A program made the position numbers and the translations under genes. DNA of 34,056 nucleotides, from the NCBI GenBank assembly GCA_913055635.1, contig CAJXLK010000041.1, positions 1 to 34,056 on the forward strand, given 5' to 3'. The DNA comes from an uncultured Bacteroidota bacterium. GTDB lineage: Bacteria > Bacteroidota > Bacteroidia > Bacteroidales > UBA12077. The notes beneath the pieces are model-generated. The model searched no databases. It had not been told where the DNA came from and saw nothing but the letters and a program-made list of their open reading frames with translations. Below, piece by piece: positions 21,431-34,056 of the stretch (positions are counted from its first letter, which is position 1; the number at the start of each line of letters is the position of its first letter).

Positions 21431-23479
21431 TTAATGCTTTTTGTCCTTAATGCAACGCACAGAAAATTTCTGGGAAGTATAGCTGGCATCCCGGTAAAGT
21501 CCTGATCCCCGTGTGGTGATGGTCCGGTGCCAGGCTTTATCGCTGTTGGGTTTAGAGGCACTCCAGAAAGAAGTACTGATGCCCATATAGTAGCTATCGC
21601 CGGTCAGATCGATGCGGCCGGCAGGCAGGGCAGCAAAGCCGGTCACATCCAGATAGGCGCGATTGCGGTTTTGGCGCCTGGATGAATCATTCCAATAGTT
21701 GAGGTTTTTCAGTCGATTGCCAGCTACCATTTCCCCGCCCAGGTATTCGGAAAGTTTACGCCACTCCTTTTCCGAGGGTAAATGCCAACCATCGGGGCAA
21801 ATCCCCTGAACGGTAGAATTCTTCCGATTGGCCGGGCGGCTGTATTGGGTTGCTTCACCCCAGGTATAGAGGCCACCCAGGGAGTTGCAATTTTCTTGTG
21901 AATTGTTGTAGCAGGACTTTTCGATGATCCGGTCATCTTCCGGAATTTCGTCGGGGGGAACCTGCTGGCCTATATTCATGTTTTCAGCCATCCAGGTTTG
22001 TTCACCAATGGTGATCACCTGATAACGCTGGGTATCGCGGGGGTCTTTCATGATACGGTAAACAAAAATATTGTTTTCCCGGGTCCGGCATCCGTTTTTA
22101 TCTTTGACCGTCACCGAATAGACCCCGTTGCGGACACCTGCCAGGTTCCTGGTGGTGTCTCGGGTGGACCACTGATAGGAATAAGGTGGAATACCGCCTT
22201 TCACATCCAGTTGAATCTTTCCGGTGGCCGTATCACCCTGGATGTTTTCAACCGATGCATTGACTTTCAAAGGATAGGGTTGTAAAACGCTGACGCTGTC
22301 GATGACCTGATAGCCCCAGCTGTCCTCGACTGAAACATAATACCGGCCGGAAGGCAGGTTGTTCAGTTCCCGGCCGGATTGATTATTAGACCACCGGATG
22401 GTATATGGGGGTTTGCCGCCATGAATATCCATTCTGACCGAACCGTTTTTCTCGCCGTAACATTTGACGTGTTCGCGGTCAAAGCTCAACTTAACCGGCT
22501 CTTTCACCACCAGGCGTTTGGTCACCGAACACGCCCCCCGGCTGCTGACTTTCACCGTATAATAACCCGGGGCTAATCCACTGAGGCTGTTGCTTTCTTC
22601 GCCGGTTGACCATTGATAGCTGTAAGGAGGCCTTCCGCCGCTGGTTCGCAGCTGTATGCTGCCATCTTCTGCACCCACCCTGGAAACATTCCGGATCTGA
22701 GGATTGATCTCCAGAGGATCGGGCTGGGTAATGGTCACCTGCTTAATGGCAGTATATCCTTTGTTGTCGGTGACATATACTTTATAATCGCCGGCCTTCA
22801 AATTATCCAAATCCTGGGTCTTCTTGCCGTTCGACCATTCATAGGAATAAGGCGGATGGCCACCCTGAACAGATATATCAACGGCACCATCTTTCATCCC
22901 ATGGCAACTTACATCGCGCTTCTCTACCTGGATCAACAACGAATTGACATTCTTCATGAACCGGGGCAATTCAATGACCCCGCCATTGGTCAGGTAAACC
23001 TTGTTGTCCTTTACGCTCAGGGCTTTAATGCCTACCCTGGCAGTATCCATGAAAGGATCAGAAAGCTCCTGCACCCCCCCGCTGAAAATACGAGGCGTTA
23101 TCATCAACAATTCACTGGTATGTTGAAAAGTATAACCTGTATTCAACAAATCTTCAATCGTGGCCCGGATAAAATAACTCTGATTCACATTCCAGGTCAC
23201 ATTTGAGAAGTCCTGTTCACTAAAGCCTTGCCCCAATCTAAGACGAACCAGCCCGTTTTCACTGGTGGTGGCAAACTGGGTTTCCCGATAAACAACCCTT
23301 CCTTCAGGCCCACCTGCTAAAAGCTCCAATTCAATATCCACTTCTTCCTGCTTAACCAAGTCTCCCCCGGCATTCCTAACCGAAAACTGATAGACCAGGG
23401 GGCGGGTCTGGGCCGATAGTTCATGAAAAGGAAAAATAAACAGCATCACAAGTATATAAAGTGAAAAGGTATGCCTCAT
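21431..23479 (-). CDS. Surface protein with SprB repeats and a FISUMP C-terminal domain
   Basis: 682 residues. A signal peptide (about 1-23, ending LSAQ) is followed by a domain of about 160 residues common in Bacteroidota secreted proteins. Then come four SprB-type repeats (about 185-480), each with GGxPPYSYxWSxGxxxxxLxxLxxGxYxVxVxD spacing. The C-terminal domain of about 200 residues is of the fibrobacter succinogenes major paralogous type (IGEQTWMAENMNIG, CPDGWHLPSEKEWRKL, SVRCIKD). Both domain families occur on exported, surface or adhesion proteins. It starts 28 bases after the ECF sigma factor stop, so the two are very likely co-transcribed. No type IX sorting domain is seen at the C-terminus. 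Confidence 0.88.
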   Translation of the reverse strand: MRHTFSLYILVMLFIFPFHELSAQTRPLVYQFSVRNAGGDLVKQEEVDIELELLAGGPEGRVVYRETQFATTSENGLVRLRLGQGFSEQDFSNVTWNVNQSYFIRATIEDLLNTGYTFQHTSELLMITPRIFSGGVQELSDPFMDTARVGIKALSVKDNKVYLTNGGVIELPRFMKNVNSLLIQVEKRDVSCHGMKDGAVDISVQGGHPPYSYEWSNGKKTQDLDNLKAGDYKVYVTDNKGYTAIKQVTITQPDPLEINPQIRNVSRVGAEDGSIQLRTSGGRPPYSYQWSTGEESNSLSGLAPGYYTVKVSSRGACSVTKRLVVKEPVKLSFDREHVKCYGEKNGSVRMDIHGGKPPYTIRWSNNQSGRELNNLPSGRYYVSVEDSWGYQVIDSVSVLQPYPLKVNASVENIQGDTATGKIQLDVKGGIPPYSYQWSTRDTTRNLAGVRNGVYSVTVKDKNGCRTRENNIFVYRIMKDPRDTQRYQVITIGEQTWMAENMNIGQQVPPDEIPEDDRIIEKSCYNNSQENCNSLGGLYTWGEATQYSRPANRKNSTVQGICPDGWHLPSEKEWRKLSEYLGGEMVAGNRLKNLNYWNDSSRRQNRNRAYLDVTGFAALPAGRIDLTGDSYYMGISTSFWSASKPNSDKAWHRTITTRGSGLYRDASYTSQKFSVRCIKDKKH

Positions 23480-23507: not shown

Positions 23508-24089
23508 TTAAAAATCCTCGAAGACGGTTTTTTTCATTTGCCGCAGTGTTTGAATAGCCCGATATATAAGCTTACGGGCCGACTGATAATTAACCCCCAT
23601 CACGTCGGTGATTTCCTGGTAGGATAAATTCTTATAAAACTTCAAATAAATGGCTTCCCGTTCCCTCGAGGTCAGTTTGTCGAGCATGGCATTGATTTTA
23701 CGGGTATAGTCGTCTTTGCTCTCTTCAGAAATCCAGTTGGATTCAGCAGAAGGTTCAATCTCAAAAGTTTCCCCTTCATATTGATCCTCCAGATAATTGA
23801 ACCCTTTTTTCTTTTTGAGTTTATCAAAGACGCGTCTGCGGAAGGAGGCCAAAAGATAGGACCTGATGTTATCGGTGGGGCCCAGATTGGATAATCGGGA
23901 TATCAGGTCGAAAAACAATTCCTGGATGGTATCCTTAATAAAGGCCGGATCATTGTGGATGCGAATGCCATAATCGTAAAGGGGATTATAGTTATCATAA
24001 TAGATGCGGGATAAGGCTTCCTTATCGCCTGTTTTAAATTTCTCCCACAGGAAATAATCAAAATTTTTTGATCGTTCGCTTTCGCTCAT
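23508..24089 (-). CDS. ECF-type RNA polymerase sigma factor
   Basis: 193 residues. Region 2 lies at about 30-100 (DTIQELFFDLISRL, then NIRSYLLASFRRRVFDKLKKKK). Region 4 lies at about 130-185 (LTSREREAIYLKFYKNLSYQEITDVMGVNYQSARKLIYRAIQ, read in two parts), a clear helix-turn-helix. In Bacteroidota such factors usually pair with an adjacent FecR-type anti-sigma gene; here the next gene is a SprB/FISUMP protein instead. The only FecR-type genes in view are at 29531 and 33876, on the far side of the curli export genes. That makes it the likely partner of one of them, by inference. No TAnnTTTG box was seen upstream, so it may be autoregulated. Confidence 0.92.
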   Translation of the reverse strand: MSESERSKNFDYFLWEKFKTGDKEALSRIYYDNYNPLYDYGIRIHNDPAFIKDTIQELFFDLISRLSNLGPTDNIRSYLLASFRRRVFDKLKKKKGFNYLEDQYEGETFEIEPSAESNWISEESKDDYTRKINAMLDKLTSREREAIYLKFYKNLSYQEITDVMGVNYQSARKLIYRAIQTLRQMKKTVFEDF

Positions 24090-24420: not shown

Positions 24421-25818
24421 TCAGAAGTAGAATGATATGCCCAGGTCACCCTGCCAGTAGAAATCATTAAAACTGCCATGGACTACCTCATCCACCTGGT
24501 CGCTGTAGAAATAGTTGTATTTCACCGAGGCGCCAACACCGATACGCCGTTTGGGGCCCATAAAGTATTCCACACCCGCGCCAACAGCCGAATGGTAAAA
24601 CAATTGACTGAAGTCAATGGGAACCACCCGCTCATAGGGTATGCCCGTTTCGGAATAAGTTCCGAATTCGGCCGAGAGGTATGGAGTATAGACTTTTTTG
24701 GGGGTGAAATCATACCGCATGCCCGCGTTCACATGGGTAAAAGCCTTGTTGTAATGGGGTTTGGCAGTCAGATAAGTTTTGCCAAACCGCAGAAAAGGCA
24801 TCCATTTTTCATTCAGGCGATAACCCACACTGGCGTTTAACTGGGGTCTTTTCATCGAGGAAGAATAGTCGCCTGAATACTGGGATACCCCGCCATCGAC
24901 CCTGACAGAAAAGTTATAGGGGCGTGATTTATGCTGAATGCCGAACATATCGGTTTTGGATCGCTGATCCTTATCTTTCAGATAGGTCTGAATAACCTGG
25001 GAATTGATCTCCTCGGGATTTTGGAGTTTCCAGAGGTCTTCAAAGACCCCTTCTATGATGAGGCTTTCCAGGGCCTTTTCAATGGCTGAGCGCACAGCAA
25101 GCTGGGTGGGCTCATTAAAGGTTACCCCGGTTTCCGCCTCCAGGAGCCGTTTGAATTTGACATAACGGAACACCCCGGCGTCAATCTTTTGGGACAACAC
25201 CGTTTTGGTGGCATTGACCGATTTAAGGATTTTCCCGTTTTTAGTGGAAACGGCCCGCAGGTAAACACTCACCCGGTCCTGCCGGTATTGCCCGGAAGCT
25301 CCGGCTCCAAAATAACGCAAACCGGCACCACCGGTCTTTACATTATGGTCATAGGAGATGATACCCCCTTCCAGGATCACCCCGGCAAACATCAGGGGCG
25401 GCAAACCCGATTTCGAAGAGTTGCCCCCATTATAATGGGCCCGGGAGGAGCGTATGATTTTCCGCTCATTCAACAAATTGCCCAATCCCCCACGCTCAAT
25501 GGGAATAAACCACCCACTTTGATCCATGGCCTGGATCAGAATGGATGTAGCCCCCTGGGTGACAGCGGTCGACCAGGAGCCACCGCCCGAAGAGCTCATC
25601 TTATATTGGCCGGTCTTGTCGCGGAAATCATAAACCGCGGCAACCACCTTGCTCTTGGGCTTGGGCAGTTTCTTGAGCCGCTGGACCGTCTCAGTCTTAG
25701 CACCTAGCTTGGGATCACTCGTTTGCATGGGATGGTTGATCATATAACTGCATCCCGAAAGCATCAATAAAGATAAGGAGATAAGAATCAGAGGTAATCT
25801 CGTGTCAAGTTGTTTCAT
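24421..25818 (-). CDS. csgG: Curli secretion channel CsgG with an added C-terminal beta-barrel domain
   Basis: 465 residues, against about 277 in E. coli. The lipobox LSGC places the acylated Cys at residue 23. The CsgG core (about 45-290) has VAAVYDFRDKTGQYK, GATSILIQAMDQSGWFIPIERGGL split over two motifs, LLNERKIIRSSR, and AGVILEGGIISYDHNVKTGG, all matching CsgG. Residues about 298-465 add alternating beta-strands rich in aromatic residues (GVSQYSGDY, LNASVGYRL, HVNAGMRYDF, AVGAGVEYF) and end in GISFYF, with the terminal Phe typical of outer membrane barrels. The core forms a nonameric pore exporting curlin; the role of the extra domain is unknown. It is the third gene of csgEFG, 15 bases after csgF. 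Confidence 0.93.
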   Translation of the reverse strand: MKQLDTRLPLILISLSLLMLSGCSYMINHPMQTSDPKLGAKTETVQRLKKLPKPKSKVVAAVYDFRDKTGQYKMSSSGGGSWSTAVTQGATSILIQAMDQSGWFIPIERGGLGNLLNERKIIRSSRAHYNGGNSSKSGLPPLMFAGVILEGGIISYDHNVKTGGAGLRYFGAGASGQYRQDRVSVYLRAVSTKNGKILKSVNATKTVLSQKIDAGVFRYVKFKRLLEAETGVTFNEPTQLAVRSAIEKALESLIIEGVFEDLWKLQNPEEINSQVIQTYLKDKDQRSKTDMFGIQHKSRPYNFSVRVDGGVSQYSGDYSSSMKRPQLNASVGYRLNEKWMPFLRFGKTYLTAKPHYNKAFTHVNAGMRYDFTPKKVYTPYLSAEFGTYSETGIPYERVVPIDFSQLFYHSAVGAGVEYFMGPKRRIGVGASVKYNYFYSDQVDEVVHGSFNDFYWQGDLGISFYF

Positions 25819-25833
25819 AATGCTGTTTGATGG

Positions 25834-26280
25834 TTAATAATACGGCAGGGTGATCGTGGTTTCACTTCCCTTCTGAAAATCCTGGATCCGGATGTTGACC
25901 CCCTGCTGGCCTTCAAAAACATCCACCTTGTAGTTGCCGAATTCATAACTGCCTTCTTCCAGACCCCCCTGGCCCATATCGTCTCCAAAATAGGAGTTGA
26001 CCACCTGACTGGAGAGTTCACTGAAAAAACGCCGCTGCAAATCCTGCTCAAAATTGGCCGCAGGATCATAACTGTAATCGCGTCCATAACTGGCTTGCGA
26101 TTCATCTTTCAACGTATTCTGGGCATTGGCAGAACTCAGCATCCATTGATAATTGACATAACTGCCACCAAAGGCCGGATTTTTAGGAGTGTATACAAAA
26201 TCCTGTCCCTGGCTTTGGTGTATCGAGAAAACGGTGGCGATGAACAAACCCACCAATAACTTTAAATGTCTCATAAGCAT
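25834..26280 (-). CDS. csgF: Curli assembly factor CsgF
   Basis: 148 residues (146 if the second ATG at 26274 is used). There is a signal peptide ending SQGQ, then the CsgF signature DFVYTPKNPAFGGSYVNYQW and LSSANAQNT, by which CsgF inserts into the CsgG pore. The mature N-terminus plugs the channel exit and links it to the surface nucleator. The C-terminal part is poorly conserved but ends YKVDVFEGQQGVNIRIQDF with a hydrophobic strand, as is usual. It lies 9 bases after csgE and 15 bases before csgG, so the three are one transcript. Confidence 0.93.
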   Translation of the reverse strand: MLMRHLKLLVGLFIATVFSIHQSQGQDFVYTPKNPAFGGSYVNYQWMLSSANAQNTLKDESQASYGRDYSYDPAANFEQDLQRRFFSELSSQVVNSYFGDDMGQGGLEEGSYEFGNYKVDVFEGQQGVNIRIQDFQKGSETTITLPYY

Positions 26281-26289
26281 AGTTTTAGA

Positions 26290-26829
26290 TTAATAAATGC
26301 CGGTGCCCTTCATGTCCTCCCCTTCCAATTGCTGTTTTATTTTTTGGTAATGAACGATATAATTCTCCGATTGTTTAACGGCCATTTGGGCAACCTGCCT
26401 GATGTACTCCGGTTTGGGACTTATACGCCGCTTAAAAATTTCTTCGTAATTGATCTTAACCTGTATAATATTGCCCATTCCCGGGGAAGGCCTTTCATTG
26501 ATATAAATGGTAAAATTCCGGTCAGTTTTGGGGGGATCCCAATTGTCATAAAATACGCGGTAAAAATCATGGCCCATCTTGGAGAGGGTCTCATCCATGA
26601 CCAGGTTGTTGAGCACAAAATCATCATCTTTAGGGTCTTTACCCTGATCGATGAGGGTATCGGATTGGACTTTCTGCTCGTATTGCTCGACAATCTTACG
26701 CAATGCCGGCGGTACTTTATCGGGCTGCCCGCCAGTGGAGGCAACGGTGGTGTCCTGCTGAGCCCAGGCACCCGACATCGCAATCATAATGCATACCGGC
26801 ACAAGTGGTAAGGCAATTCGTCTTTTCAT
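26290..26829 (-). CDS. csgE: Curli secretion specificity factor CsgE
   Basis: 179 residues from the ATG at 26829 (MKRRIALPL...), which gives a clean signal peptide; an upstream in-frame start at 26850 would add seven residues. The CsgE signature is MDETLSKMGHDFYRVFYDNWDPP followed in register by ITVYINERPSP-like residues (here FTIYINERPSPGMGNIIQV) and the RR-containing loop IFKRRISPK. CsgE caps the periplasmic side of CsgG and selects curlin substrates. An Asp/Gln-rich extension of about 50 residues precedes the core. It is the first gene of csgEFG. No TAnnTTTG promoter was found upstream, consistent with an alternative sigma factor. Confidence 0.93.
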   Translation of the reverse strand: MKRRIALPLVPVCIMIAMSGAWAQQDTTVASTGGQPDKVPPALRKIVEQYEQKVQSDTLIDQGKDPKDDDFVLNNLVMDETLSKMGHDFYRVFYDNWDPPKTDRNFTIYINERPSPGMGNIIQVKINYEEIFKRRISPKPEYIRQVAQMAVKQSENYIVHYQKIKQQLEGEDMKGTGIY

Positions 26830-27421
26830 AGCTACTTCAATTGGGTACATTGTTTACAACGTGTTACAATCTTGCGCATTGTTTCGTTCAGGCAAAAGCT
26901 GGGGACTGGTTAAAAAATTTTTATATTTGTTTTGCGCTCAATTTTTTACCATTGCCCGGTTTTTTTAGCTTGCCTGCTTTGCAGGCTTTAAAACCTTTAA
27001 CCCGCATAAATTCCGGGTTAAAAAGCACCCTTTTTAAAGGCTATATAAAGGTATAACAACTTAAAACCACATACAACCAATTCGTCAAAACAGAGCTCCA
27101 TTCATCAAAATAAAAAAAAGGGGGCACAACAATAATCGTTTGATTATCATTAAATTAATTGCAAATGCCAGGTCAAATATTTTTACCGATCCCCATCGGG
27201 GAAGCCGGCCCGCTGATCAGGGCAGGAACATACTTAGCCCCCGGCTGAGCTTTTCTCTTGTTTTTTTAAATGATTCTGCAGAGAAACTGAACATTCAGCA
27301 AGGGTTTTGTGTTTCGGGATTTGTAAAGAAAAAAAGAAAACATATGTTGCGTCTCTATGGATTTTATTAATTTGGCCCTTCAGTAAAAAAATAATGCATA
27401 AAGAACATTAAAAAGGAATAT
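26830..27421. other. 592-base divergent intergenic region
   Basis: No gene is supported; a 76-residue plus-strand frame at 27140 looks spurious. Contents: a TATATTTG octamer on the plus strand (26932-26939) without a good -33 box; hairpins GCCTGC-TTT-GCAGGC (26972-26986), TAACCCG/CGGGTTA (26998-27020) and CCCC-ATC-GGGG (about 27191-27201); and a one-mismatch FNR-type box TTGAT-TATC-ATTAA (27140-27153). It presumably holds promoters for csgEFG and for the lipoprotein gene. Confidence 0.5.
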
Positions 27422-28939
27422 ATGATACAAACACGCACATTCAAATATTTACGGCCGGCATCGTGGATGCTTATGCTCATTTTTGTTTTTGTATCCTTTC
27501 AGTGTACGGAAGAGCCCTATGAACCTGATGTAAACGGAGCCATCAAGGGGCAGGTTCGTGATGCCGAATCGGGCGTTCCCCTGGGCAATGTAACCATTAC
27601 CACCCAACCTGCCACAAGTGTAGCTGTTACCGGAGCTGACGGGAATTACATAATCTCTAAGGTGGATACGGGCGAGTACAGCATAGTAGCGGAAAAAACC
27701 GATTACAACAGCAAGATCCTCAGTGTACGGGTCAATGAAAAAGACACTTCCCGGGTGGTCATCCTGCTGTCGGCTTCCGACAATTCAGGGACCAGCGACA
27801 TCAGCTTTAAGGACAATTTTATGCCCGGCCAGGGCGCCGAAGGGCAGGCCATCAGTCCGACCCTTTCATGGAAAGCCGAAGGCGATCAGGATGTCGATTC
27901 TATTAAATATGACGTTTGGCTTTATCCCTCCGATGCCCCGACCAAAAGAAAAGTCGCAGAAAACATCACCGATACCTCCCTTACGGTTGAACCTCTGACT
28001 TACAACAGCGTTTATTACTGGCAGGTCAGTGCCTCGAGCAATGATGGAAAGGAGATATACAGTAAGACCATGAGCTTTAAGACCAAAGCCATATCCGAGA
28101 ATGCCTTTTTTTTCGTAAAAAAAACCGGCGGCGATTATGAAATCATGGCCTATGACATGGACCGCGATGAGGTTAACCCGCTTACTTTCAATAGCTTCAG
28201 GGACTGGGCCCCCAAATTCAACCCCAAGAACGGGCGCATTGCCTATGTAAGCGATTCGCGGGTGAAGCCTTATATATATACCATGGACAAGAATTCAGGC
28301 GACATCCGCCAGGTGAGCGAAATCCCCGTTGCCGGATACCACAATTACGGCAATGCATTTGACTGGGATGAGGACCGCGGGAAGATCCTTTTTAGCCATA
28401 ATCAGAGCCTTTACCAGATCAACAGCGAAGGGACCAATCGGACCCTGATCACCAAGGCCCCTGACGGGAGACATTTCCGGGAAGTGGCGGTATCCCCCGA
28501 TGGCAGCCAGATCCTTGTTTTGACCATTGGCCAAAAGATCTACAACTCCGAGATACGGGTAATGGACCGCGACGGCAGCAATGAGCAGGTGCTGATCGAC
28601 TCCCTGGACGGGGTGGTTCAATCGCCTTCCTGGTCCATTGACGGAGAATCGATTTTGTTTACCCATGATGTCTCCGGCAATGAAACAGAGGAGGGCCGTA
28701 TGCTTAACAGCCACATCTTCAGCCTCGACCTGGCCACCAACGACACCACCGACCTATCCGGCAACAAACCCCAGGGCACCAACGACATGAACCCGCGTTA
28801 TTCCCCGACCGGGGCCCAAATTATTTTCTCCAATGCCCCCAACGATGATTCCCGGGCCCCCAACCTCTATATCATGGATCATAACGGAAACAACCGCGAA
28901 AAGATTGTTACCGGCGGAACCCTACCCAGCTGGGAATAA
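27422..28939 (+). CDS. Surface lipoprotein with carboxypeptidase-regulatory-like, Fn3-like and PD40 beta-propeller domains
   Basis: 505 residues. The lipobox is FVSFQC with Cys at about 28; the acidic stretch TEEPYEPD just after it is the kind of signal that sends Bacteroidota lipoproteins to the cell surface. Residues about 37-115 are a CarboxypepD_reg-like beta-sandwich (GAIKGQVRDAESGVPLGNVTI). Residues about 125-225 resemble a fibronectin type III domain (SPTLSWKAEG, YYWQVSASSNDGKEIYS). Residues about 235-505 carry TolB/PD40-type blades (WAPKFNPKNGRIAYVSD, REVAVSPDGSQILVL, SPSWSIDGESILFTHD, NPRYSPTGAQIIFSNA). It probably binds protein or carbohydrate at the surface. It lies between the csgEFG and curlin operons, so an accessory fibre-anchoring role is possible but unproven. 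A terminator follows at 29000. Confidence 0.82.
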   Translation: MIQTRTFKYLRPASWMLMLIFVFVSFQCTEEPYEPDVNGAIKGQVRDAESGVPLGNVTITTQPATSVAVTGADGNYIISKVDTGEYSIVAEKTDYNSKILSVRVNEKDTSRVVILLSASDNSGTSDISFKDNFMPGQGAEGQAISPTLSWKAEGDQDVDSIKYDVWLYPSDAPTKRKVAENITDTSLTVEPLTYNSVYYWQVSASSNDGKEIYSKTMSFKTKAISENAFFFVKKTGGDYEIMAYDMDRDEVNPLTFNSFRDWAPKFNPKNGRIAYVSDSRVKPYIYTMDKNSGDIRQVSEIPVAGYHNYGNAFDWDEDRGKILFSHNQSLYQINSEGTNRTLITKAPDGRHFREVAVSPDGSQILVLTIGQKIYNSEIRVMDRDGSNEQVLIDSLDGVVQSPSWSIDGESILFTHDVSGNETEEGRMLNSHIFSLDLATNDTTDLSGNKPQGTNDMNPRYSPTGAQIIFSNAPNDDSRAPNLYIMDHNGNNREKIVTGGTLPSWE

Positions 28940-28958: not shown

Positions 28959-28999
28959 AAGGCGTATCCCCAACCCATTACCATCCCATATTCTTACAG
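28959..28999 (+). repeat. 41-base perfect direct repeat, copy 1
   Basis: This copy starts 20 bases after the lipoprotein stop and runs directly into the terminator stem. It is identical, base for base, to 29094-29134. It is not a palindrome and has no coding potential. It suggests a duplicated 3' segment. Confidence 0.9.
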
Positions 29000-29021: not shown

Positions 29022-29530
29022 AACTGTTATGCACCATTGCCTGGGGTATCAATGCCTTCCCTTTAACCGCCCTATGAACCCGTCTTAAAATCCAAGGCGT
29101 ATCCCCAACCCATTACCATCCCATATTCTTACAGTCCACTTCCTTAGCCAACGACCATAATCCAGAATATATGATATTTTTAGCGATTCATTATTCTTAA
29201 CTGTTCAGTATAGTTTAAATTTATGCATTTACACGATACTGTTTTGCGACTCAACCCGCAATCTTCTAAAGGACAGACCTATGATTGTTACCAGAAAAAA
29301 AAGACATAAATATTTCTTTATCAACACTTTAGCCAAAAGTTCATTTCCAAAGTCCACCTTCATCCCTTTGATTTATAGCAAATCGGTGCGGCTGACATCA
29401 TAAATATAAAAAGCTCTTTTACAGCACATTAAAAAATAACCTGTTTTTTTTGAAAAAAACTGGCGATAAAAGGGGCCATGAAGTCTTTATTATATCAGGG
29501 AAGGATATATTCATATATTTTCAAGATCTG
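29022..29530. other. Intergenic leader of the FecR-curlin gene
   Basis: An AT-rich region of about 500 bases holding the second 41-base repeat and no gene I can support. No TAnnTTTG box with correct spacing was found, so the curlin operon promoter may be recognised by another sigma factor. The frame of the next gene is open back to a TTG at 29450, but the homologous start is at 29531. Confidence 0.5.
29094..29134 (+). repeat. 41-base perfect direct repeat, copy 2
   Basis: Second copy, 135 bases after the first, without the terminator hairpin at its end. The bases just outside the repeats differ, so the unit boundary is sharp. Confidence 0.9.
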
Positions 29531-31078
29531 ATGAAAAAATTTACACAGTACGTTACCGTAGATTTCGTGCTGGATGAGAGCTTCCGCAGCTGGGTATACA
29601 ACGAAGACCCGGAAGCTGCAACATTCTGGAGGGAATGGATTGCCCTGCACCCGGAAATGAAGTCCTTTGCAGAAGAAGCCCGCCGGATCCTGCTGGATCT
29701 GCGGATGGAAGAAGTAAAGGTCAGCCCTTCAGAGATTGCCCGGGGTTATCGGGAAATTGAGCATTTCTTTGAACAAACGGTGCATCAGCGTAAAAAATCG
29801 GCGCCTGGGTTCTACCTGAAAATAGCAGCTGCAGTGCTGGTCCTGGTGACAACAGCCCTGGGGCTTTATATTCATTTACAGCCCGAAGAGATAACAAAAC
29901 AATACGCCACCGCAACAGGTGAACATAAGAAAATCCAGTTACCTGATGGTTCAAGCGTTTATATGAAAGGAGACACCAAAATGTCTTACGCACTCAACTG
30001 GCGAAAAAAACAGGAAAGAAAAGTTAAACTTCAGGGTGAAGCCTATTTTCAAGTTCGTGAAACCTTGTATGAAGGCAATCAACTCAAATTCATCGTTAAG
30101 ACCGACAACATTTTGATCGAAGTGGTGGGGACAGAATTCATGGTAAATAACCGAGATTTCAAAACAAAGGTCACCTTAAACTCAGGTAGAGTACGACTTC
30201 AGGCGCCTCAAAACAAGACACTTAACATGAACCCGGGTGATGTAGTCGAGTACAATGCCATTAGCCATAAATTAGTTACCCTCAAACCAGACCTACGGCA
30301 AAATTCCTCATGGATGAACGATTTTAAAGACTGGGAAGAACAACACCAAAGGGGTAAATCTCATTCCGCTAACAAAAAAGAGCAGTTCCATAAAGGGAAT
30401 ACTGCCATACCACCCGACAATAAGAATAAGCGACAAGACGCTGTATGTGCCGGGACTCAAGCTGCTATCAGCAATCAAACAGAAAACAGGATATATAAGG
30501 AAGAAGAAAACGGCCAGAAAAAGAATCCCAAAGAATATCATCTATATACCGGACAACAGAATTTCGAGAACAAACCGACAGGTGTTCTTCAGGAAATTAA
30601 TCATCGGTACCTTATTCATCCGGTTGGTCCAAACAGTAATTCAGAAAAGGGCAATGTCAGTCAAATCATTCAACAGGGAGAACAAAATACGGCATATATC
30701 GAACAAATTGGCGAGGGACTGCGATCTCAACAACATCAGTTCGGCAACCAAAACCAAGCCCGGGTCTACCTCAAAGGCGAGACCAACCGGGAAAAAAGCG
30801 TTGATTTGAGTTGGTCAACCAAACAGTTGCAGAATGGTAGCGCCAACCGATCGATTTTTAAACTGATAGAGTCTTATAACATCCACATCTCTTCGAATCA
30901 ATACGGAACAGGGAATCAAAATTTTGTAGAAAGCAGTGGATATCAAAACATTGGAATCATCCAACAACAGGGAACTTACAACAAAGTGCAGATCGATCAA
31001 AACGGGATGAGCAACCAGACGAGGAACCACCAGGTTGGTCGATTGAATGAGATCGAAATCATCCAAAAGGCAAATTAG
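29531..31078 (+). CDS. FecR-like transmembrane regulator fused to C-terminal curlin repeats
   Basis: 515 residues from the ATG at 29531, chosen because the paralogue at 33876 starts identically (MKK..QY...DFVLD). Residues 1-90 form a cytoplasmic anti-sigma-type domain. Residues 94-115 form one transmembrane helix (LKIAAAVLVLVTTALGLYIH). Residues about 124-225 form the periplasmic FecR domain (ATATGEHKKIQLPDGSSVYM, KVKLQGEAYFQV, VVGTEFMVNN, TLNSGRVRLQ). After a polar, low-complexity linker (about 265-370) the usual C-terminal FecR domain is replaced by about eight curlin-type motifs (375-515), e.g. IIQQGEQNTAYIEQIG and VQIDQNGMSNQTRNHQVG. In FecIRA systems the periplasmic FecR end reads a receptor signal and controls an ECF sigma factor. 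Here it is built to contact curlin. The gene heads the curlin operon. Confidence 0.88.
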   Translation: MKKFTQYVTVDFVLDESFRSWVYNEDPEAATFWREWIALHPEMKSFAEEARRILLDLRMEEVKVSPSEIARGYREIEHFFEQTVHQRKKSAPGFYLKIAAAVLVLVTTALGLYIHLQPEEITKQYATATGEHKKIQLPDGSSVYMKGDTKMSYALNWRKKQERKVKLQGEAYFQVRETLYEGNQLKFIVKTDNILIEVVGTEFMVNNRDFKTKVTLNSGRVRLQAPQNKTLNMNPGDVVEYNAISHKLVTLKPDLRQNSSWMNDFKDWEEQHQRGKSHSANKKEQFHKGNTAIPPDNKNKRQDAVCAGTQAAISNQTENRIYKEEENGQKKNPKEYHLYTGQQNFENKPTGVLQEINHRYLIHPVGPNSNSEKGNVSQIIQQGEQNTAYIEQIGEGLRSQQHQFGNQNQARVYLKGETNREKSVDLSWSTKQLQNGSANRSIFKLIESYNIHISSNQYGTGNQNFVESSGYQNIGIIQQQGTYNKVQIDQNGMSNQTRNHQVGRLNEIEIIQKAN

Positions 31079-31256: not shown

Positions 31257-32594
31257 ATGAAACGTTTATTAAGTATTTTAGTAGCTTTGCTTTTCGTATC
31301 AGGAATGGCAATGGCACAAAACAGTTCAACGACCGATCAGGATGGTGTCAACAACTCAGCCAATGTAACTCAAATCCTTGATGGTGGTGATAACACATCC
31401 AATGTAGAACAGTATGGGGGAGATGATCCGGCTTTTCCCAATTTAGCGACTGTTAATCAGACAACCTCCAACACCGGTAAAAATGAATCAGGGATTAAGC
31501 AAGGAAACCAGGTAAATGGCAATGCAGATTTAATGGATGCCTATGTGAATCAAATTGCGAATGATGGAGGATGGAACTATTCTTACATCCATCAGGTAAA
31601 TAACGCGAAAAATGCGACGGTGAATCAAACTGCTGGAGGATCAAACAGCAAAAACGAATCATTCATCGAGCAATCCATTGGAGGAATAAATGAGCCCATA
31701 AGCTCCGCTACGGTTAATCAATATGCCTGGAATGAAGGCTACAACAAATCCGAGATTTATCAAGCCGGCAAACAGAGCGATGCCAATGTTTATCAAAGAA
31801 ACTGGGGATATGGAGATGATGGCATCACCTCATATATCAATCAGAATGGGTATAATCAGTCAGCTGATGTAGATCAATACCATGCCGGCACAGGCAAAGA
31901 TGAATCCACCATCAACCAGGCAGGTGGCAATAATGCAGCCGAGTTATTGCAAATGGCTATAAATGTTGGAGGTACGAATGCCTCGGACATTGGACAATAT
32001 GGGGGCGAAAACGGAGGCAATACCGCCAAGGTTCATCAAAACATAACAAACCTGGGCGACAATACTGCCAACGTCATGCAGGGAAAAGAGGCACATCCCA
32101 ATGCAGATCAGCAATGGGCATGGGTTAATCAAAATGCAACCAGCGGAGGTTCCAATGAGGCCACAGTAGAACAAGTGAACAACTCGCATTGGTCCCAGGT
32201 CCTTCAACATGCTGCTGCCAACAGTAAAAATACTTCTACCATCTACCAGGGTGGCCATTCCCCGAAAAACATTAACGGAGGCTGGATTAGCTTAAATCAG
32301 GTAGCCATTCTGGGTGGCGAAAACACCTCTAATATCAATCAACATGCAACCAATACAAACTATCACTTAGAGGAAACCTACGCAACGGTTATTCAGACCT
32401 CATCAGGTGGAATCAACCAGGTAGACATTGACCAGTATGACATGTATAATTGGGCCAATATTAACCAGTTTCACACTGGAGGTGGCCTGATGAATAACGC
32501 TTTCATTGAACAGAAGGGCAATGGTCCAAATATTGAAATGATTAATCAAACAGGATCAGGTAACACCGCCAACACCATCCAACATAACTATTAA
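31257..32594 (+). CDS. Large curlin-repeat amyloid protein (CsgA-like)
   Basis: 445 residues; signal peptide MKRLLSILVALLFVSGMAMAQ. The mature protein is almost entirely curlin-type strands ending in x-[VI]-x-Q, e.g. ANVTQ, ATVNQ, AYVNQ, SYIHQ, SFIEQ, SEIYQ, ADVDQ, STINQ, AKVHQ, ANVMQ, NINQ, FIEQ, with Asn/Gly/Ser turns between. By eye there are about 29 such strand motifs, against ten strands in five repeats of E. coli CsgA (131 residues mature). Asn and Gln are very abundant and Cys is absent. It should be exported through the CsgG pore encoded nearby and build a beta-solenoid fibre. It lies 178 bases after the FecR-curlin gene and ends with ...QHNY. Confidence 0.92.
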   Translation: MKRLLSILVALLFVSGMAMAQNSSTTDQDGVNNSANVTQILDGGDNTSNVEQYGGDDPAFPNLATVNQTTSNTGKNESGIKQGNQVNGNADLMDAYVNQIANDGGWNYSYIHQVNNAKNATVNQTAGGSNSKNESFIEQSIGGINEPISSATVNQYAWNEGYNKSEIYQAGKQSDANVYQRNWGYGDDGITSYINQNGYNQSADVDQYHAGTGKDESTINQAGGNNAAELLQMAINVGGTNASDIGQYGGENGGNTAKVHQNITNLGDNTANVMQGKEAHPNADQQWAWVNQNATSGGSNEATVEQVNNSHWSQVLQHAAANSKNTSTIYQGGHSPKNINGGWISLNQVAILGGENTSNINQHATNTNYHLEETYATVIQTSSGGINQVDIDQYDMYNWANINQFHTGGGLMNNAFIEQKGNGPNIEMINQTGSGNTANTIQHNY

Positions 32595-32695: not shown

Positions 32696-33355
32696 ATGAC
32701 TAAATTTTGGAATACATATCGTTTTTTGGTGGTTTTTCTTTTTTCGTCCTTTTTGATGTCTGCTATTCAATTGCATGCTCAAAGTCAAGGGCAGGTAGGT
32801 AGCAACAATAACTGGTACATGGCCAACCCTGCCGGCAGCAAGATTGATGTAAATGCCCTGCTCCAAAACAATGAAAACGGTCAAAACAATGCCAACCAGA
32901 CCAATGAGGTATCGGTAAATGATGATTTTGAAGGGAATTACCAGCAGCGGCATCAGGAATTTTATGAATTGACCACCTCCTATGGAGCGGTAGAAGATTA
33001 CCTCTCTGCACAAAATGGTTATTCCATTGGGGAGAATGAAAACCTCATAAAATTACATATGGAGGGCAATTCCAATTCCATCATGGCTATCCAGAAGCAG
33101 GGATCAGGAAACATCATGGATGTAAAATATTACGGCAACTCCAATCAAGGGTACTATCGTCAGCAAGGATCGGACAATTTTATTTACGATCAGATTGGGA
33201 CCCTTCTAAACCACGAAACCGGAGTTTACCGGGAAATCATCCAAAACGGCACAGGATTGGGCGTAGTAAATACAGGCATCCCCAAAATGGACATGATCAT
33301 TAATCAGAATGGGGCACACATGCTGTTAAAAATAAACAGTTCTCCCCCTTTCTAA
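32696..33355 (+). CDS. Minor curlin-like protein, candidate nucleator (CsgB-like)
   Basis: 219 residues. It starts at an ATG preceded by AAGGAA 6 bases upstream. The signal peptide is about 1-29 (VVFLFSSFLMSAIQLHAQ). A non-repetitive region of about 90 residues follows, with an Asn-rich segment and YQQRHQEFYELTTSYG. Then come curlin-type motifs from about 115 (LHMEGNSNSIMAIQKQGSGN, VKYYGNSNQGYYRQQGSDN, YREIIQNGTG, MIINQNGAHMLLKI). Fewer, less regular repeats plus an extra N-terminal domain suit a nucleator or minor subunit like CsgB, by analogy with csgBA. It is the last gene before the terminator at 33379. The exact role is inferred. Confidence 0.78.
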   Translation: MTKFWNTYRFLVVFLFSSFLMSAIQLHAQSQGQVGSNNNWYMANPAGSKIDVNALLQNNENGQNNANQTNEVSVNDDFEGNYQQRHQEFYELTTSYGAVEDYLSAQNGYSIGENENLIKLHMEGNSNSIMAIQKQGSGNIMDVKYYGNSNQGYYRQQGSDNFIYDQIGTLLNHETGVYREIIQNGTGLGVVNTGIPKMDMIINQNGAHMLLKINSSPPF

Positions 33356-33875
33356 CCAGAAAATAAGGGTTCAACAAAAAACCCCGCCTCGTCAGGCGGG
33401 GTTTTAATTTTTCTTACCCAATTGTTTAACCAAAAACTAAATGTTATTGGTATTCATTTTAACGCAGTTCGTCAAAATAAGGTTACAGTTTTTTTTTAAA
33501 TTTTTCAGATTTTTTCGTTTCACTCCATTTCAGTTATCCGATCCATACGCCCCTTCCTAACTCCGGTAAAAAAATGGAAGAAATCTCTTATTTTGATGAG
33601 CAATTTTGTCAATAACAGGAAGTATCCCAAAAACTTCATCCCATCAACCAGGGTTTAAAAATTTTCCAAAGCTAACTTAATCTGGCCAAGATTGAAGGGT
33701 ACCGGTTGTTTTATATCAAAAAAATCAACCGATGACAACAATCAATATGTTTATAAAAACCAGTATATTACACTACCGGACACACTTTCTTCAATAATTT
33801 CTTTTCTTTTTTTGTCCACAAAAGCATAAAATCTTCCTTTATATTAACGAAAGGATTTAAAAGCCATTTTCTCCG
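33356..33875. other. 520-base gap before the second FecR-like gene
   Basis: After the terminator comes CAATTGTTTAACC (33419-33431), identical to the leader of the major curlin gene at 31229-31241 and followed there and here by a CAAAA-like stretch. An inverted repeat CGGTTG/CAACCG (33703-33731) lies further on. No gene is supported. The promoter of the next gene was not recognised. Confidence 0.5.
33379..33405 (+). terminator. Rho-independent terminator of the curlin operon
   Basis: AAACCCCGCCT (33379-33389) pairs with AGGCGGGGTTT (33394-33404) around a CGTC loop: an 11-base-pair perfect stem followed by TTTT-A-TTT. It is the strongest terminator in the window and it separates the minor curlin gene from the second FecR-like gene. 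Confidence 0.93.
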
Positions 33876-34056
33876 ATGAAAAAATACATACAATATAGCG
33901 TAGAAGATTTTGTGCTGGATGATGCCTTCAGGAGATGGGTCCTGAATGAGGATGCGCTTAATGATGCCTTTTGGAGAGAATGGATCACCACCCATCCCGA
34001 CATGCAGCCGGTAGTGGATGAAGCCCGGCAGATCATCCTGGGGCTTCAGACCGAAC
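33876..34056 (+). CDS. Second FecR-like anti-sigma/regulator (N-terminal part only)
   Basis: The first 60 residues, cut by the window edge. They align without gaps to the N-terminus of the FecR-curlin protein at 29531, with about 33 of 60 positions identical by manual comparison (shared blocks MKK, DFVLD, FWREWI, HP.M, EAR). It is therefore a paralogue of the cytoplasmic anti-sigma-type domain. Whether it also carries a FecR domain and curlin repeats cannot be seen here. Two such regulators flanking the curlin structural genes suggest a duplicated module. Confidence 0.8.
   Translation, partial: MKKYIQYSVEDFVLDDAFRRWVLNEDALNDAFWREWITTHPDMQPVVDEARQIILGLQTE

Follow-up and report, generated by a model that had tools for sequence, protein, structure and literature searches.

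Background

FecR-type regulators contain a Gly-Thr bond at which they cleave themselves, and Prc and RseP cut them once an outer-membrane partner has engaged; in the systems studied, engagement of this partner activates the sigma factor (PMC9249621). The Bacteroidetes carry curli, but csgD was missing from this group, Spirosoma apart, in a 2012 survey (PMC3521004), which raises the question of how their curli are controlled. The locus described here encodes a FecR-type protein that ends in curlin repeats.

Domain organization of FecR-curlin

The gene, which we call FecR-curlin 1, lies in the window (the whole stretch of DNA that was analysed, 34,056 nt) and has the following parts:

29531–31078, + strand: FecR-curlin 1, 515 aa, a single open reading frame with no internal stop
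29531–29800, + strand: N-terminal domain (residues 1–90), homologous to the part of ordinary FecRs that binds sigma in the cytoplasm
29822–29878, + strand: transmembrane helix (residues 98–116), hydropathy 2.18, next best 1.15
29900–30196, + strand: FecR domain PF04773 (residues 124–222), E 3.8e-16, passing the cut-off
30128–30133, + strand: Gly200-Thr201 within the FecR domain, invariant across 5 aligned copies
30281–30646, + strand: variable linker (residues 251–372), 20–24% identity, pLDDT below 50 over 272–378
30653–31075, + strand: curlin-repeat tail (residues 375–515), with an E[SA]YN motif at 447–450

The preliminary description of this DNA had proposed a cytoplasmic anti-sigma-like domain, one transmembrane helix and a FecR domain, followed by about eight curlin motifs in place of the usual FecR C-terminal domain, and each of these elements was recovered. 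Ordinary FecRs align with the N-terminal domain from profile position 1 (many from 1–10), with E values down to 2.8e-56. There is one clear hydrophobic 19-mer (98–116), with RKK some residues ahead of it, and these positive residues suggest that the N-terminus lies inside. No secretion signal was apparent from domain matches and hydropathy, by which residues 1–90 are a FecR-type domain and 98–116 the only strong helix. Gly200-Thr201 may be the equivalent of the FecR self-cleavage bond, and the linker is probably disordered. In Pfam searches FecR_C (PF16344) was missing from FecR-curlin 1 and, with it, from all four complete copies of this protein type, and it was found in the three ordinary FecRs of the genus that were scanned.

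The count of about eight curlin motifs is a fair one: exact QxGxxN occurs seven times in the last 160 residues (shuffle mean 0.28, none of 10,000 shuffles reaching 7), at spacings of 22, 31, 23, 22, 11 and 11, and the tail modelled alone has 12 strands (pLDDT 70). Curlin_rpt (PF07012) is found in the window copy at E 0.03, which is under the cut-off, NCBIfam CsgB matches residues 456–513 at 3e-9, and a profile of four tails finds curlin 8c50 at 3.6e-25. A single profile (A1) matches both the anti-sigma factor 4m0n (7.6e-21) and curlin 8c50 (7e-19).

The full-length model of FecR-curlin 1 is poor (mean pLDDT 51, from two sequences) and puts the membrane helix at 92–115; the N-terminal domain is modelled, at low confidence, as four helices (16–22, 27–39, 41–56 and 66–84). 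Foldseek matched the FecR part of the model to the anti-sigma factor 4m0h (E 2.2e-11) and to PupR 6ovk (E 4.5e-8). It gave no match for the tail model at E ≤ 0.001; when its list was re-ranked with VIA-align, the CsgA fibril 8enq came first (Z 14.6, rmsd 8.4, 110 aligned), followed by unrelated Suf proteins at Z 12.8. A PHROGs search matched no family. The domain matches support the view that FecR-curlin is a regulator of FecR type whose C-terminal sensor appears to have been swapped for curlin.

Copies and conservation within the genus

The genus set comprised five genomes, including the one to which the window belongs (G000, the own genome) and one that is 57% complete (G004). Strong matches to the tail profile were found in G000 (two), G001 and G002, those in G001 and G002 at 4e-89 or better. 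Full-length homologues of the window copy are present in G001 (44% identity) and G002 (41%), and a further complete copy lies on own-genome contig C16, where an insert after the helix shifts the FecR domain 84 residues later. All three pass both the FecR and the Curlin_rpt Pfam cut-offs. Two more copies are cut by contig ends, so that their tails are unseen. One is on G002 contig C43 and the other is in the window:

33876–34056, + strand: FecR-curlin 2, start only, cut by the contig end

Over its first 60 aa, FecR-curlin 2 shares 75% identity with the G001 protein, which is complete.

Overall identity among the copies is 36–45%, and linker and tail can be aligned in all four complete ones. Relative to the window copy, identity is 37–49% in the N-terminal domain, 38–58% in the FecR domain, 40–50% in the tail and 20–24% in the linker; for the three other complete copies taken singly, the tail gives 50, 46 and 40% versus 24, 20 and 20% for the linker. 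Judged by these identities, the curlin tail is under constraint, unlike the linker. The segment that separates the membrane helix from the first repeat is 265, 269, 263 and 270 residues long in the complete copies, whose FecR domains start at 124, 124, 125 and 208, respectively, suggesting that the reach from membrane to curlin repeats is constrained, as far as four copies from only two lineages can indicate.

In a FecR tree of 34 hand-chosen sequences, an own-genome FecR from contig C33 (a 140-residue fragment), which looks by eye like an ordinary FecR, groups among the FecR-curlins. Own-genome contig C42 carries a 95-aa open reading frame (L036:732-1016) that has the N-terminal domain of the FecR-curlin type and no other part of it (40% over residues 4–58). 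It adjoins a gene that resembles a transposase by eye, and it may be a remnant or a free-standing sigma-binding domain.

The curlin operon and its surroundings

Following FecR-curlin 1 on the same strand are two further genes and a hairpin, and the curli exporter genes lie on the other side of a lipoprotein gene:

24421–26850, − strand: csgG (24421–25818), csgF (25834–26280) and csgE (26290–26850), curli exporter genes, same strand as the sigma gene described below
27422–28939, + strand: CarboxypepD_reg + PD40 lipoprotein, always a neighbour of csgEFG in the order's other curli loci that were examined
29461–29494, + strand: promoter-like motif TGGCGATAAA-N14-CTTTATTATA, 70 nt before the FecR-curlin 1 ATG
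31257–32594, + strand: curlin, 445 aa, operon gene 2 (NCBIfam CsgB 3.2e-8; Pfam Curlin_rpt 0.0038, under the cut-off)
32696–33355, + strand: small curlin-like protein, 219 aa, operon gene 3, with a homologue at the C67 locus
33378–33405, + strand: terminator-like hairpin with a 12-bp stem and T run, the likely operon end
33813–33846, + strand: second copy of the motif, 63 nt before FecR-curlin 2

No + strand terminator was listed between the three operon genes, and with the motif ahead of them and the hairpin behind, FecR-curlin 1 can be kept as the first gene of the curlin operon, the place first given to it. A curlin gene comes after FecR-curlin in all four complete copies, only its first part being on the contig in G002 (C221). 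On C16, three curlin-type genes follow FecR-curlin, and the ECF sigma gene found there is divergent. The 219-aa protein matched no Pfam family up to E 1, and its homologue on C67 in turn matches the one on C16; it is possibly a minor subunit, a cap or a nucleator. Similar small genes are also seen at C16 and in G002 and G003. Contig C67, with a sigma gene, a second copy of the lipoprotein gene and three curlin-type genes reaching the contig end, may continue the window past 34056 across an unclosed gap. The lipoprotein is likely an unnamed curli accessory protein.

The locus is rich in repeats, and it is where several contigs break off. An exact direct repeat of 41 nt (28959–28999 and 29094–29134) lies between the lipoprotein gene and FecR-curlin 1, and a gene for a SprB-repeat + Fib_succ_major protein (21431–23479), kept in G002 and G003, lies 28 nt behind the sigma gene. 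No TonB-dependent receptor gene is next door, the neighbours in the window and on C16 being curlin, csg, lipoprotein and sigma genes; of five ordinary FecRs in the own genome, four are followed by what reads by eye as a TonB-type receptor gene and the fifth (C21) by another membrane-type protein. No relative of CsgD was met at the window locus.

A shared promoter-like motif

A Gibbs search of the 150 nt before six FecR-curlin genes (four complete, two cut) found a bipartite promoter-like motif, TGKCNAYA-N16-CTTW, before all six with identical spacing. Its information content is 36.36, versus 27.84 ± 0.66 (maximum 29.49) in 40 shuffles; the likeness of the six sites is in part due to shared ancestry, because they are paralogous or orthologous. 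The distance from motif to ATG is 62–72 nt in five genes, and in the G002 C43 copy the motif lies 82 nt before the ATG suggested by alignment and 34 nt before an earlier one. In the 4.08 Mb of the own genome there are two zero-mismatch matches to the own-genome pattern, both in the window (29461 and 33813), as is so by construction for patterns drawn from the sites themselves. Three sites have one mismatch, one of them preceding the C16 gene, and at up to two mismatches the 47 matches versus 37 for the reversed pattern amount to noise. The genus pattern, which was widened after the G003 site had been seen, has five zero-mismatch sites in the five genomes, all heading FecR-curlin genes or the G003 curlin operon; at up to one mismatch it too gives noise (36 matches versus 46 for the reversed pattern).

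G003 has a syntenic curlin operon that, compared with C16, lacks the sigma gene, FecR-curlin and one of the curlin genes. The motif is present, with a matrix score of 20.41 at a site outside the training set, 156 nt before a curlin gene, so that the motif has stayed with the curlin operon. This site is farther from its gene than the others and sits in sequence like the C16-type upstream region; by that likeness it is held out rather than independent. No site scored 14 or more in 0.17 Mb of background loci. In the curli-locus stretches two other sites did so: one in an L151 coding region (14.54), and one before the window sigma gene, where there is a two-mismatch match only (matrix score 14.39). 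The stretches of G002 and G003 that carry the orthologue of this sigma gene reach at most 13.00 and 9.93.

Sigma factors of the curli loci

The candidate partner of FecR-curlin in the window is the following gene:

23508–24089, − strand: ECF sigma factor of the curli-locus clade, by Pfam, NCBIfam and tree

An ECF sigma factor had been placed in the same locus as FecR-curlin 1, and it is indeed there; it lies, however, on the opposite strand, 5.4 kb away and behind csgEFG. Its orthologues are found behind csgF-csgG in G002, where the contig starts, and behind csgE-csgF-csgG in G003 (83% and 80% identity). In a tree of 34 sequences (13 of 40 and 21 of 33 matches, with duplicates and short or weak ones dropped) the ECF sigma factors of curli loci form one clade of eight, apart from the other own-genome ECFs included (FastTree support 0.909). 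Seven of the eight have csgG, FecR-curlin or the lipoprotein gene of the curli loci as a neighbour, and the remaining one sits where its contig ends. Physically, the pairing is clearest on C16 and, for the cut copy, on G002 C43, where an ECF sigma gene is adjacent to FecR-curlin and divergent from it. No sigma factor of this clade was found in G001, a 530-contig assembly, though G001 has FecR-curlin. That the sigma factor at 23508–24089 is the partner of FecR-curlin is plausible but unproven. For a sister group of sigma factors (L148:8366-8983, L149:3969-4553 and L150:787-1356), the stretches that were examined gave neither a FecR nor a curlin match. Gene order, the shared promoter-like motif and the curli-associated sigma clade together support a tie between FecR-curlin and the curlin operons.

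Distribution beyond the window

Proteins that combine FecR and curlin repeats, for which the preliminary description had proposed a search across the Bacteroidota, are found as the copies of the genus, and none was seen in the other order and phylum genomes searched. With the tail profile at E ≤ 1e-10, one of 295 genomes of the order matched, the own genome, G001 and G002 evidently being outside this draw. With the full profile at E ≤ 1e-30 and up to three candidates per genome, the own genome alone among 395 of the phylum matched past about position 285. A contig scan returned four loci, one of which (L044) is, by its identical DNA, contig C221 of G002; the other three, two from Dokdonia and one from a Bacillota MAG, are without a FecR-like match. 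Curlin repeats occur in 48 of the 395 phylum genomes. None of 33 curlin loci, made up of one from each of 30 of these 48 genomes (own included) and the two Dokdonia and one Bacillota MAG loci, had a FecR-like match at E ≤ 0.01; with the short flanks of these loci, genes that are cut could escape this check.

CsgF is present in six of the 295 genomes of the order. The five loci outside the own genome belong to three families, with three loci from one genus; csgEFG and the lipoprotein occur together in each, the lipoprotein of L082 being short. None of the five has a FecR match, L085 being cut by a contig end; by eye their regulators look LytTR, LuxR-like or AraC, and L082 has one ECF sigma gene at the locus edge. 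Within the genus, FecR-curlin was not found in G003 despite clade sigmas, curlins and the motif, in an assembly whose csg contig ends 125 bp past the lipoprotein gene.

Proposed mechanism and alternatives

The reading that we lean towards, with slightly more confidence than doubt, is that FecR-curlin sits in the inner membrane, regulates an ECF sigma factor, reads periplasmic curlin and thereby controls the curlin operons. On the cytoplasmic side, the N-terminal domain would hold a sigma factor from the curli-locus clade. On the periplasmic side, the helix, the FecR domain and a long tether would position a few stacked curlin repeats in the place where ordinary FecRs in these bacteria have FecR_C, which reads a partner of the TonB-dependent-transporter type. 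Curlin that crosses or accumulates in the periplasm could then pair edge to edge with the regulator's own stack, and this C-terminal engagement would destabilise the FecR domain, as in FecR/PupR signalling. Prc- and RseP-like proteases would cut next, so that the sigma factor is freed or activated and may transcribe the curlin operons, the FecR-curlin gene among them, from the shared motif. The own genome has an M50 (RseP-type) protease (E 1.9e-54); this, the invariant Gly200-Thr201 and the known processing of FecR-type proteins are the reasons for reading FecR-curlin as a sigma regulator whose partner-reading domain may have been exchanged for curlin. Because partner engagement activates the sigma factor in the FecR systems studied, we favour positive feedback, and not only a brake on export: activation, with commitment to fibre production, seems to us somewhat likelier than repression. 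Several observations count against this reading: the window sigma gene is not adjacent to FecR-curlin, the G001 assembly yielded no clade sigma and G003 no FecR-curlin, the motif is lacking before csgE at up to two mismatches and matches only with two mismatches before the sigma gene, Foldseek gave no significant match for the tail model, the full-length model is poor, and the C33 FecR groups with the FecR-curlins in the tree.

A more particular version, which we regard as rather unlikely, is a polymer-templated switch, in which growing periplasmic curlin nucleates on the regulator's strands and the FecR domain, cleaved at Gly-Thr, is pulled or changes shape and so frees the sigma factor. If so, amyloid growth would turn on its own operon, and such a switch could be bistable and passed to daughter cells with the seed.

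The reader of periplasmic curlin has its strongest competitor in a regulator that reads the exporter. The curlin tail could act as a decoy substrate on a tether, docking at CsgG/CsgE and reporting a free or busy channel to the sigma factor, in which case subunit synthesis would follow export capacity. We give this a minor share of belief. It would suit the position of the sigma gene behind csgG in the window, G002 and G003, and the nearly constant distance from membrane to repeats in the face of a linker whose sequence is not constant, as though reach were important. The E[SA]YN motif, present in the tails of all four complete copies and in none of ten curlin-type proteins of the genus, is likewise a sign that the tail is not simply another curlin. 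However, csgE is without the motif at up to two mismatches.

It is less probable still that FecR-curlin is an inner-membrane nucleator or holdase for curlin, whose tail captures or seeds periplasmic subunits while the FecR and N-terminal parts are a mere anchor. The tail is indeed curlin by its profile match to 8c50, and curlin genes come next, but the N-terminal domain of sigma-binding type is kept at an identity (37–49%) that an anchor would not need, and two copies are divergent beside an ECF sigma gene. The nucleation of E. coli curli takes place outside the cell, which also counts against a periplasmic nucleator.

Domain shuffling without sensory meaning, where a curlin gene became fused behind FecR and the tail is tolerated as a spacer, is improbable. 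The type was seen in three genomes of one genus only, among those searched, as such an accident might be; yet the tail is conserved like the N-terminal domain and far above the linker, and it persists in copies at 36–45% overall identity. Finally, that a separate curlin gene was joined here by an assembly or sequencing error, which the preliminary description had considered, is contradicted by the homologues in G001, G002 and C16, with complete open reading frames in three genomes, on two contigs of the own genome, and a linker and tail that align throughout; we attach almost no weight to such an artefact, and FecR-curlin is real, neither a chance product nor an assembly join.

Comparison with known systems

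The literature searched on FecR, anti-sigma and ECF sigma factors with curli or amyloid, which included few subscription papers, held no amyloid-tipped anti-sigma factor that we found, and the accessible parts of PMC10192328, PMC12822426 and PMC3521004 no protein of the FecR-curlin type; within this literature, the earlier statement that none has been described stands. If the proposed role is true, FecR-curlin would be a sensor built from the polymer that it regulates, a design for which these sources gave no precedent. It suggests that Bacteroidota of this genus may control amyloid fibres by directly reading the fibre protein. CsgD of Escherichia coli and FecR-curlin, in its proposed role, both regulate curli genes, and FecR-curlin, the sigma clade and the motif provide concrete candidates for curli control in the Bacteroidota.

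Pfam holds a model for the N-terminal domain of RsgI, and no such family is among the FecR-curlin Pfam matches up to E 1. The RsgI proteins of Clostridium thermocellum are membrane anti-sigma factors with RseP cleavage in their signalling (PMC12203970). Like FecR-curlin in its proposed role, they respond to a substrate of the very system under their control; they are, however, of another protein family, from a Gram-positive, and directed at external substrates, whereas the tail of FecR-curlin resembles the polymer subunit itself.

CsgA and CsgB (PF07012; 8enq, 8c50) share with the tail the QxGxxN repeats, mostly 22 or 11 apart, but are free secreted chains, whereas the tail is tethered, with a membrane helix and a FecR-type domain ahead of it. 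With the FecR/PupR-type regulators (PF04773 and PF16344 in Bacteroidota; 4m0h, 6ovk) FecR-curlin has in common the N-terminal domain, the helix, the Gly-Thr FecR domain and a putative link to an ECF sigma factor. Where those regulators have FecR_C, FecR-curlin has a linker and curlin repeats instead, with curlin genes next to it. The parts of FecR-curlin are thus of known kinds and, as far as we have seen, their combination is new.
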